Shown here: one piece after another, positions 7,545 to 17,995 of the stretch
Position numbering within the stretch: the stretch's first letter is position 1
How the letters are laid out: each line of letters starts with the position of its first letter
DNA from: Candidatus Kryptoniota bacterium
GTDB taxonomy: Bacteria; Bacteroidota; Ignavibacteria; Kryptoniales; JAKASW01
Assembly (NCBI GenBank): GCA_024641705.1
Contig: JAHECO010000001.1
Coordinates: forward strand, 62,001 to 126,000
Direction: 5' to 3'
DNA length: 64,000 bases
Notes under the pieces: generated by a model
What the model was told of the DNA's origin: nothing
What the model saw: the letters and a program-made list of their open reading frames with translations, nothing else
The model's database searches: none
Program-made: the position numbers and the translations under genes

Positions 7545-8237
7545 TCATTCATTTCCGGTCGGTGCCGAGGCAATGGAAGAGATTATGTTGTGCAGGAATT
7601 CTACCTTAGACTTCAAATCTTCAATTGAGCTGTCGTTCGCAATCGTGAAATCGGCAAGCTTCTCCTTTTCAGATTGCGGTATCTGGGCGTTGAGTCGCTT
7701 CATCACGTCCTGCTTGCCTATCCCCAGTTTTGCCGAGGCGCGCGCAACCGCGCTCTTACGGTCGGCTTTCACGAGGATCACGTAATCGAAATGTTCGGAG
7801 AGCTGGGCCTCATAGAGCAGGGGGACTTCTATGACTGCATAGCGGGTGTCTGCTCCTTCGCCGATTCGATTCGCAATGGCCGACATGATGGCCGGATGCA
7901 GGATGCTCTCGAGTTTCTTCCTCTTCTCGCCGCTGCCGAAGACTATCTTGCCCAGCTTCTCGCGGTTGATCGTCCCGTCAACAACTACCTGGTCCCCGAA
8001 AAACTCTACGACCCTGCTGCGTATGCCGGGGTCCGACTTAAGGAGCTCGTGTCCGATCGTGTCGGCGTTGAATATGGGGATTCCGAGTTCTGAAAACAGC
8101 GCGGCCACGGTGGACTTCCCGCTTCCGATGTTGCCGGTGAGCCCGATCCTCAGCGGTGCGTGCTTTCGGCCGTCGGACAGGAGGTCCGTAGAATTGTCAT
8201 GTCCCCGGGATGTACTGCCTTGTTTCCTATTTTGCAT
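7545..8237 (-). CDS. coaE: Dephospho-CoA kinase
   Basis: 230 residues. It phosphorylates dephospho-CoA, the last step of coenzyme A synthesis. The P-loop GNIGSGKST is at about 35-43, followed by [12 protein letters not shown] (Asp of the acceptor site) and [10 protein letters not shown] (LID/Walker-B-like region). The first 28 residues are a hydrophilic extension not typical of CoaE. The ATG lies 11 bases inside the rny reading frame (ATGCAAAATAG), so translation is coupled to rny; a later non-ATG start is possible but none is convincing. Confidence 0.93.
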
Positions 8238-9780
8238 AGGAGATGCTGCGCACCTCGCGTATCACCATTACTTTTATCTGGCCGGGATACTCCATCTGTT
8301 CCTGGATCTTCTGTGAGATCTCGTGCGCAAGCTGATCTGCGAAGATATCGTTCACTTTTTCGGGTTCGACGATGACGCGGACCTCTCTGCCTGCCTGGAT
8401 GGCGTAGGTCTTTCCGACGCCCGAGAAAGAGTTGGCGATGCTCTCCAGCTTCTCGAGGCGCTTTACGTATCCTTCGAGCGATTCCCGCCTTGCACCGGGC
8501 CTCGCGCCGCTGATGGCGTCTGCGGCCTGGACGATGGCGGCTATCGGGGTCTCCATCTCGATGTCTTCGTGGTGTGAGCCGATCGCGTTGGCCACGACAG
8601 GGTTCTCGCCGAACTTCCTGGCCACTTCGTAGCCGAGGAGGGCGTGCGGCCCTTCGACGCTCTTGTCGACGACCTTTCCGAGGTCATGGAACAGTCCGGC
8701 TCTCTTGGCCAGCGTGGAATCGAGACCAAGCTCGACTGCCATTAGCCCGCTGAGGAACGCGACTTCGATGCTGTGCTGGAGGACGTTTTGTCCGTAGCTC
8801 GACCTGTACTTCATCCTGCCTAGCATCTTCACTATCTCCGGGTGAACGCCGTGGATCCCGACCTCGAGGAGGGCATCCTCGCCGATCTGGATTATCTCTT
8901 CCTCCAGTTCGCTGCGGACTTTTTCGACGATCTCTTCGATCTTCGTGGGATGGATCCGTCCGTCGGCGATGAGTCTCTCGAGCGAGCTCTTGGCGATCTC
9001 GCGCCTGAACGGATCGAAACCGGATATCACCACCGCGTCGGGGGTGTCGTCGACGATTATATCGCACCCTGTCACAGCCTCGAACGACCGGATGTTTCTC
9101 CCCTCGCGGCCGATTATACGTCCTTTCATTTCCTCGTTTGGCAGGCTTACGACGCTGACGGTGGTTTCGACGGAGTGGTCGGCGGCGGTCCGCTGGATAG
9201 CCTGCACGATAATCTTCTGGGCTTCTTTCCTGGCCTCTATGCGGGCCCTCTCCCGGATTTCCCGTACTTCCAGGGATGCCTCGCTTCTTGCTTCGTTCGT
9301 AAGGTTCTCAATCAGAAGCTTCTTGGCGTCCTCCCGCGACACACCGGCAAGTTTCTCCAGCTTCTCGGTTTGCTGCTGGACGAGTTTGTCTGCCTCGCCC
9401 TCCTTAAGCTGGATGACCTTGCCTTTTTCCCGCAGTTCCATCTCCAGAGTTCGTACTGACTTCTCCTGCTGCCTCAGTGATTCCGCTTTCCGGTCGAGAT
9501 TCTCCTCCTTCGAGCTTAGCTGGCGCTCAATATTCTGTATTCTCTTCTGCTTCGAATTGTAATCGTTGTCGAGTTCCTGTCTCTTCCTGATCCATTCATC
9601 TTTTACTTCGATCAGCTTTTCTTTCTTTATGGCATTCGCCTCGCGTTCGGCCGTCTCGAGGATCTGTTTGGTTCTTTCTTCGACTGTCCCAAGCTTCTTC
9701 TTGGTCGTCTGTGCCTGAATGAACCACCCGATGAGGAACGCGGCCGCGCTGCATATTACAGCGACTGCTGTGGTTACCAT
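8227..9780 (-). CDS. rny: Ribonuclease Y
   Basis: 517 residues. This membrane-anchored endoribonuclease starts mRNA decay. An N-terminal transmembrane helix (about 3-22) is followed by a long coiled coil rich in Lys, Glu and Arg (about 30-190), a KH RNA-binding domain ([12 protein letters not shown] near 210) and an HD phosphohydrolase domain with LFHDLGK near 358 and the downstream SHHED histidines. TGGAGG precedes ATG. It lies between the candidate 6S RNA and coaE. Confidence 0.97.
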
Positions 9781-9803
9781 ACCGAACCTCCAGGTTTATC
9801 TAC

Positions 9804-10030
9804 AAAAAAAGCCGCAACGCGCTCATGGCAGATAGGAAAGAACCCCATCTTTACACGGTGGGTGCCCTCCTGAGCGAGTCGTGCTTCCGCTGCGATCCGC
9901 GGGTTGCGGTTCGTCCCGATCGAACTCAGTTCGATCGGGGTGCGGCCTGCATTCATCGTTCATGAGCCGGGCTCCCATAATTTTTCACTTAGCAGTTCTT
10001 TCATGCTTAACCACGGCGCCGTTACGGCTG
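9804..10030 (-). ncRNA. ssrS: Candidate 6S RNA
   Basis: The zapA-rny spacer folds as one long rod on the minus strand. Closing stem: GCCGTAACG (10028-10020) with CGTTGCGGC (9819-9811), one G-U pair. Second stem: CGTGGT with GCCATG. Third: GAAAGAAC (10002-9995) with GTTCTTTC (9843-9836), perfect. Then comes a large bubble of about 18 and 16 unpaired bases. Beyond it, GGGAGCCC (9976-9969) pairs with GGGCACCC (9867-9860) with one A-A mismatch. The apical arm ends in a perfect 11-bp hairpin (9915-9939). Seven U residues (9810-9804) follow the closing stem, and a TAAAAT -10 box lies at 10050-10045. This is the architecture of 6S RNA, which sequesters RNA polymerase through an open-promoter-like bubble; its gene adjoins zapA in many bacteria. 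The pairing is seen; identity is inferred. Confidence 0.68.
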
Positions 10031-10057
10031 GAAACTCTAAGAAAATTTTAAAAGAAC

Positions 10058-10348
10058 TTAGCTCGCTTCGACAGGAAAATTCTCACGCAAGTAGCTCAGC
10101 ACCCCTACAAGATCGGCGATATCGATGCCTTCGTTATGCACATGCTCCTTCAAGTCAAACAGTTGCTCGGCTATATTTAGAGCGGCTATGACTGCGATGG
10201 TCGACGTGGGTGCCCCAGGATTTTTCTCGATAAGTTCGTTCAGTAATGAATCTACGTAGGCTACTACTTTGAGTGCTTTTTCCTCGTTTTCCACGCGGAG
10301 CGGGTACTCCCGACCAAGGATGGTAACGCGTATACTCTTCTTCTCCAT
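10058..10348 (-). CDS. zapA: Cell division protein ZapA
   Basis: About 96 residues from ATG 10348, chosen because GGAG lies 6 bases upstream; a TTG at 10366 would overlap the previous gene. SIRVTILGREYPLRVENEE is the typical ZapA N-terminal beta-hairpin, and a helical region with TSTIAVIAALNIAEQLFDLKE forms the dimer coiled coil. ZapA bundles FtsZ filaments at midcell. The coiled-coil gene just upstream may encode its partner, and the candidate 6S RNA begins right after the stop codon. Confidence 0.88.
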   Translation of the reverse strand: MEKKSIRVTILGREYPLRVENEEKALKVVAYVDSLLNELIEKNPGAPTSTIAVIAALNIAEQLFDLKEHVHNEGIDIADLVGVLSYLRENFPVEAS

Positions 10349-10362
10349 CATCGGCTCCGCGT

Positions 10363-10680
10363 TCAAAAGAGACTAAGTTGCTTGTCAATCTTGGCGATCA
10401 GTTCTCTCGCCACTTCCAGAAGGCGGTTCTTTTCTCTTTCCTCGAATCCGCCCGTGTTCGCGGCTTCTCTTGCCGTCAACATCTTCTCGAGCTCTGCGAT
10501 GCGCAGCTTCAACTTCTCCATCTCCGCCGCGGATTTCGCAAGGTTCTGCTTCAGAGACTCGTTTTCAGTACGAATGACGCTTGCCGCATCGACGGCTCTT
10601 CTGACTTCATTCCACAACTCCCCAAGGAGCTGCTTTTTCATTGATAGAGTCGTCTGATCGTCCGACGCTTCTGTGTCCAT
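10363..10680 (-). CDS. Coiled-coil protein, possible ZapB-like partner
   Basis: 105 residues, strongly helical with heptad repeats between about 40 and 75 (SLKQNLAKSAAEMEKLKLRIAE). No catalytic or membrane feature is visible. It starts 2 bases after pheT and overlaps the longest reading of zapA, so it belongs to the same transcript. A small coiled-coil protein fixed beside zapA suggests a divisome role comparable to ZapB, which links ZapA to the chromosome, but sequence alone does not prove homology. The initiator lacks a clear ribosome site; ATG at 10641 is an alternative. Confidence 0.6.
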   Translation of the reverse strand: MDTEASDDQTTLSMKKQLLGELWNEVRRAVDAASVIRTENESLKQNLAKSAAEMEKLKLRIAELEKMLTAREAANTGGFEEREKNRLLEVARELIAKIDKQLSLF

Positions 10681-17817: not shown

Positions 17818-17892
17818 TGGGCGATAGAGGATTCGAACCTCTGACCTCTACAATGTCAATGTAGCGCTCTAAACCAACTGAGCTAATCGCCC
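17818..17892 (-). tRNA. tRNA-Val (GAC)
   Basis: All arms can be drawn: acceptor GGGCGAT with ATCGCCC, D arm GCTC/GAGC, anticodon stem CTACA/TGTAG with loop TTGACAT giving anticodon GAC, and T arm AGAGG/CCTCT with TTCGAAT. The discriminator is A and no CCA is encoded. It lies 17 bases after tRNA-Leu, probably in one transcript. Confidence 0.95.
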
Positions 17893-17909
17893 CTGAGCGA
17901 TTCGGACCG

Positions 17910-17995
17910 TGCCGAGGGCGGGACTTGAACCCGCACGGCCCTTTGGGGCCAAAGGATTTTAAGTCCTTCGCGTCTACCAATTCCGCCACCCCGGC
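17910..17995 (-). tRNA. tRNA-Leu (UAA)
   Basis: An 86-base class II tRNA. Acceptor GCCGGGG pairs with CCTCGGC (one G-U). Anticodon stem AAGGA/TCCTT holds loop CTTAAAA, anticodon TAA. A long variable arm (TGGCCCCAAAGGGCC) and T arm GCGGG/CCCGC with TTCAAGT follow. The discriminator is A and CCA is not encoded. Confidence 0.95.

Follow-up and report, generated by a model that had tools for sequence, protein, structure and literature searches.

A probable 6S RNA gene between zapA and rny in a Candidatus Kryptoniota genome, and its conserved locus in Bacteroidota

What does the spacer between zapA and rny encode in this Candidatus Kryptoniota genome? The stretch of 64,000 nucleotides analysed here (the window) carries on its minus strand zapA (10058-10366; PF05164, 2e-16) upstream of the spacer and the ribonuclease Y gene rny (8227-9780; TIGR03319, 708 bits) downstream of it. 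Searches with Rfam at gathering scores returned only two tRNAs across the window, whose genes lie about 17 bases apart (17818-17995, minus strand), and blastn of the spacer against a plasmid collection gave no match. A sequence-only reading had proposed an unannotated 6S RNA at this place. The results presented below led us to conclude, with high confidence, that the spacer is a 6S RNA gene (an ssrS homologue), whose product would act through sequestration of sigma70-RNA polymerase and release by pRNA synthesis.

Architecture and covariation of the spacer RNA

The spacer specifies a rod-shaped RNA of about 227 nt on the minus strand (10030-9804), a length that agrees with the sequence-only reading and fits the range of 160-230 nt for 6S transcripts. 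The four nested stems and the 18/16-nt bubble described in that reading, which gave no strand, were found on the minus strand. The outer closing stem is formed by GCCGUAACG (10020-10028) and CGUUGCGGC (9811-9819), and the inner closing stem by GAAAGAAC (9995-10002) and GUUCUUUC (9836-9843), all supported by the fold and by covariation. The central bubble consists of a 5′ strand of 18 nt (9977-9994), unpaired in both the single fold and the RNAalifold consensus, and a 3′ strand of 16 nt (9844-9859) with an ACYGUGU motif conserved in the alignment of relatives. Beyond it, the terminal arm starts with GGGAGCCC on its 5′ side (9961-9976), as defined by the covarying helices 3 and 4, and ends with GGGCACCC on its 3′ side (9860-9880), as defined by the RF00013 alignment and covariation. 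The apical hairpin (9915-9939) is indeed a perfect 11-bp stem, CCCGAUCGAAC/GUUCGAUCGGG with a UGA loop, although the alignment of relatives showed it to be lineage-variable and not conserved.

The ends of the gene were then considered. The expected seven-U run is present at the 3′ end (9810-9804) and presumably serves as a terminator tail together with the closing stem; most relatives likewise have a U run after this stem. A consensus scan of the locus returned no simple hairpin terminator. On the other side, the AAGTTCTTTWAAAAT block (10060-10045), located directly 3′ of the zapA stop codon, is kept in congeners with small length changes. The TAAAAT that had been taken for a −10 box is found there (10050-10045), but no sigma70-type promoter passed the consensus scan at the locus, so that the block is regarded as a candidate −10 region only. 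Since AAGUUCUUU within the block complements AAAGAACU, an arm of the inner closing stem, the block may act either as part of a promoter or, in zapA read-through transcripts, as a competing partner for that arm.

Folding of the region 10050-9804 on the minus strand gave −99.0 kcal/mol (z −4.8; 0 of 200 shuffled sequences as good). The plus strand folded about equally well (z −4.95), and folding energy alone therefore proves neither an RNA nor its strand; both strand and structure were settled by the Rfam match described below and by covariation. For the latter, 32 diverse relatives were aligned with MAFFT without use of structure (alignment A1). With default scoring, RNAalifold recovered no more than 19 pairs, and the inner closing stem was not among them; it was regained by RIBOSUM scoring, which revealed the 6S architecture of closing stem, large bubble and terminal arm, and 39 pairs were left after four implausible ones had been dropped. 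Standard pairs occupied 90.4% of the cells, and two-sided changes were seen in 28 of the 39 pairs (177 cells); taking the structure from the same alignment favours paired cells, but hardly two-sided changes to such an extent. The covariation score was 0.418, compared with 0.176 for shuffled alignments (sd 0.010; 0 of 500 as high) and at most 0.112 when the structure was slid by 1-3 columns. Helix by helix, the outer closing stem (helix 1) was paired in 95.9% of cells with two-sided changes in 4 of 7 pairs, the inner closing stem (helix 2) in 89.4% with such changes in 6 of 8, and the terminal arm (helices 3 and 4) showed them in 14 of 17 pairs. The bubble strands measured 11-20 nt (5′, median 16) and a median of 15 nt (3′) in these relatives. 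Covariation in zapA-rny spacers, the measure by which the sequence-only reading had proposed to judge its own claim, is thus strong.

Recognition by RF00013 and by a clade model

When an E-value threshold was applied, the 6S model RF00013 aligned over its full length (positions 1-187 of 187) with 10033-9805 at 43.9 bits (E 1.1e-7), which is 2.5 bits less than the gathering score of 46.4, an annotation cut-off and not a biological definition. This was the sole RF00013 match in the 4.6-Mb genome, and in two congeners the orthologue found at the corresponding place exceeded the gathering score (49.8 and 47.1 bits), in support of the 6S identity that had been proposed. The 6S-Flavo model RF01685, which had been suggested for the search alongside RF00013, matched neither the window nor the spacer.

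The expectation that standard models might overlook this RNA was borne out. A clade covariance model, R1, was built from A1; it placed the RNA at 9807-10028 with 147.4 bits and found a match, and exactly one each time, in 107 of the 119 genomes of the class, whereas RF00013 was over its cut-off in 2 of the 119. Direct cmscan with RF00013 gave two matches over the cut-off and five below it among 12 genus members (host included), none over and six below, at full length, among 20 class loci from other genera, and none up to E 0.05 in another 20 class loci. Since the phylum-wide genome search scores few candidates per genome and loses matches (one genome, G006, passed in some runs and was missed in another), its RF00013 count of 0 in 296 genomes was set aside, and the RF00013 rate outside the class search was judged by direct cmscan of fetched loci, which is free of the pre-filter: 14 loci of other classes yielded none over the cut-off and four below. 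All these directly scanned matches sit where R1 places the RNA. RF00013 thus fails almost totally in the class and misses the host copy by a small margin. In the reciprocal test, R1 failed to detect E. coli ssrS: its match was wrongly placed and scored 8.7 bits (E 0.19). The connection with canonical 6S RNA therefore depends on RF00013 only.

Conservation of the locus and alternative readings

Among the host genome and 60 sampled relatives, rny was found in 55, and the RNA lies just upstream of it in all 54 genomes whose upstream stretch could be read; in the remaining one (G051), where rny is cut by the contig end, the model placed the RNA in the same position. The 54 loci share the motifs AGAACC, GGGAG, ATTACAGGCC, GTGGAAGT, CACCCACTGTG and GGTTCT and a GC-rich closing stem. 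In the rny tree, the host genome groups with 'Bacteroidetes bacterium DX1.bin11' and adjoins another family (f2) of the same order, within a class-level clade that also contains Ignavibacteria. Across a phylum sample of 296 genomes, R1 matched 174 genomes from 83 of 139 genera, named Ignavibacteriales and Chlorobiota MAGs among them, and RF01685 matched 36 genomes from three other families (12 over cut-off) and none in the host's class. Sixteen loci fetched from other classes showed pheT before the RNA in every case, a recognisable zapA in most, and the RNA directly upstream of rny in 12. These results show that much of Bacteroidota carries, in single copy, an RNA of conserved 6S architecture that either separates zapA from rny or lies immediately downstream of zapA.

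Departures from this order were also observed. The remaining four of the 16 loci fetched from other classes, which belong to other families, keep zapA and the RNA and lack rny. In its place they carry ymdB, a CcmF-like gene or a lipid kinase gene on the opposite strand, of which the latter two were identified by inspection. In two rny-less loci, L191 (2240-3055) and L200 (2161-2976 as oriented), ymdB follows the 6S gene and is itself followed by an ABC-transporter ATPase gene. Class members without an R1 match belong mostly to one family (f11, L202-L210), in which rny is missing and the RNA no longer follows zapA; R1 matches in this family are weak, and lie elsewhere or are absent. One zapA-rny contig in an f14 genome (L201 in G116) gave no 6S match; its rny is 45% identical to the query, compared with about 60% in the family, and it is perhaps a contaminating contig.

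Several other readings of the spacer were weighed against a 6S RNA gene. That it is a GC-rich sequence folding by chance, or a gene for a small protein, has a practically negligible probability: both strands fold well, and the spacer is overlapped by two ORFs, one of 60 aa on the minus strand (9774-9956) and one of 95 aa on the plus strand (9904-10191), but compensatory changes in 28 pairs speak against this reading, as do indels of all lengths among the relatives, with no reading frame kept. The RNA could instead be a cis-acting leader of the rny mRNA that senses RNase Y or another signal, as it ends shortly before rny in every one of the 55 genomes that have this gene, and likewise at 12 of the 16 loci of other classes. 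We consider this very unlikely, because the zapA-RNA pair is kept in the four loci without rny; moreover, RF00013 recognises the RNA as 6S, a U run forms its 3′ end, and E. coli has zapA-ssrS without rny.

It is even less probable that the RNA binds polymerase with another action, in the manner of Ms1, which binds core polymerase. The two share a general shape, and Ms1 is a precedent for an RNA that has the shape of 6S RNA but acts differently (PMC9130861, PMC11077062). Ms1 was, however, described from Actinobacteria, the match of the present RNA to RF00013 covers both sequence and structure, and pRNAs were detected for the 6S RNA of Bacteroides (PMC7366714).

Predicted action and comparison with known systems

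6S RNA resembles an open promoter and occupies the sigma70 holoenzyme until pRNA synthesis releases it (PMC11077062). Following this established biology, the double-stranded arms and open bubble of the RNA at this locus would imitate an open promoter, which would allow it, mainly during slowing growth, to occupy the sigma70-RNA polymerase holoenzyme and hence to lower transcription from many housekeeping promoters. Once nucleotides return, polymerase would use the 5′ strand of the bubble (9994-9977), the predicted template side, for the synthesis of a short pRNA, which would refold the 6S RNA and free the polymerase. From the RF00013 alignment, the pRNA is predicted to have its first nucleotide opposite the U at 9991, within CUGCU, and to proceed toward the closing stem as 5′-AGCAGUUCUUUC. 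A dRNA-seq study of Bacteroides thetaiotaomicron detected 6S RNA together with two classes of pRNA (PMC7366714), so the 6S mechanism works in Bacteroidota; 6S RNA was also observed in Flavobacterium psychrophilum (PMC9723704).

6S RNA was therefore already known in the phylum, and the RNA described here is a further member. What is added is the member in the host genome, the near-total failure of RF00013 in its class, and the zapA-6S-rny locus that joins the 6S RNA of this class to 6S-Flavo. A global regulator of transcription is overlooked by routine Rfam annotation in most of the class and largely in the phylum, for which the zapA-6S-rny order and the clade model offer a direct route to annotation. 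A more speculative proposal, which we regard as possible though rather doubtful, is that 6S-Flavo and the little-detected 6S RNAs of the other Bacteroidota are one gene from one ancestral zapB-like-zapA-6S-rny locus, with a lasting and functional link to rny: RNase Y would be expressed from the 6S transcript or would process it to maturity. If true, such a link would couple polymerase sequestration with RNA turnover. The conserved order and the clade model connect 6S-Flavo with the remainder of the phylum and can help in choosing cultured species for testing.

Compared with the RF00013 family, the RNA aligns over the full length with closing stem, both bubble strands and terminal arm in register, whereas its apical region is longer and variable. 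In E. coli K-12 the order is zapA-ssrS-fau, with zapA upstream of 6S RNA as at the host locus, in keeping with the neighbour noted in the sequence-only reading, and with fau/ygfA downstream where the host has rny. A ZapB-ZapA-ssrS order has been described for beta- and gamma-proteobacteria (PMC7641849). Given these two arrangements, the zapA link is common to different phyla, whereas the rny link is, within the range sampled, a feature of Bacteroidota. In the window, an ORF for a 105-aa coiled-coil protein lies between pheT and zapA (10363-10680, minus strand) and reaches no Pfam cut-off. Small ORFs of this kind also stand before zapA at other loci of the phylum, and that of one 6S-Flavo locus showed a weak ZapB match (8.4e-6, below cut-off). 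The order upstream of the RNA is possibly zapB-zapA-6S, as in proteobacteria.

Within the phylum, 6S-Flavo (RF01685) shares the locus: rny lies downstream and a ZapA-type protein is encoded upstream in 10 of 10 loci examined, the single such protein tested matching PF05164 (6.9e-20), and R1 gave weak matches at four of the ten (E 0.002-0.06). The 6S RNA of B. thetaiotaomicron comes from the same phylum and another class. Ms1 of Actinobacteria is likewise a rod-shaped, polymerase-associated RNA, and it differs from the RNA described here in binding core polymerase, in its phylum and in its gene neighbours (PMC9130861).
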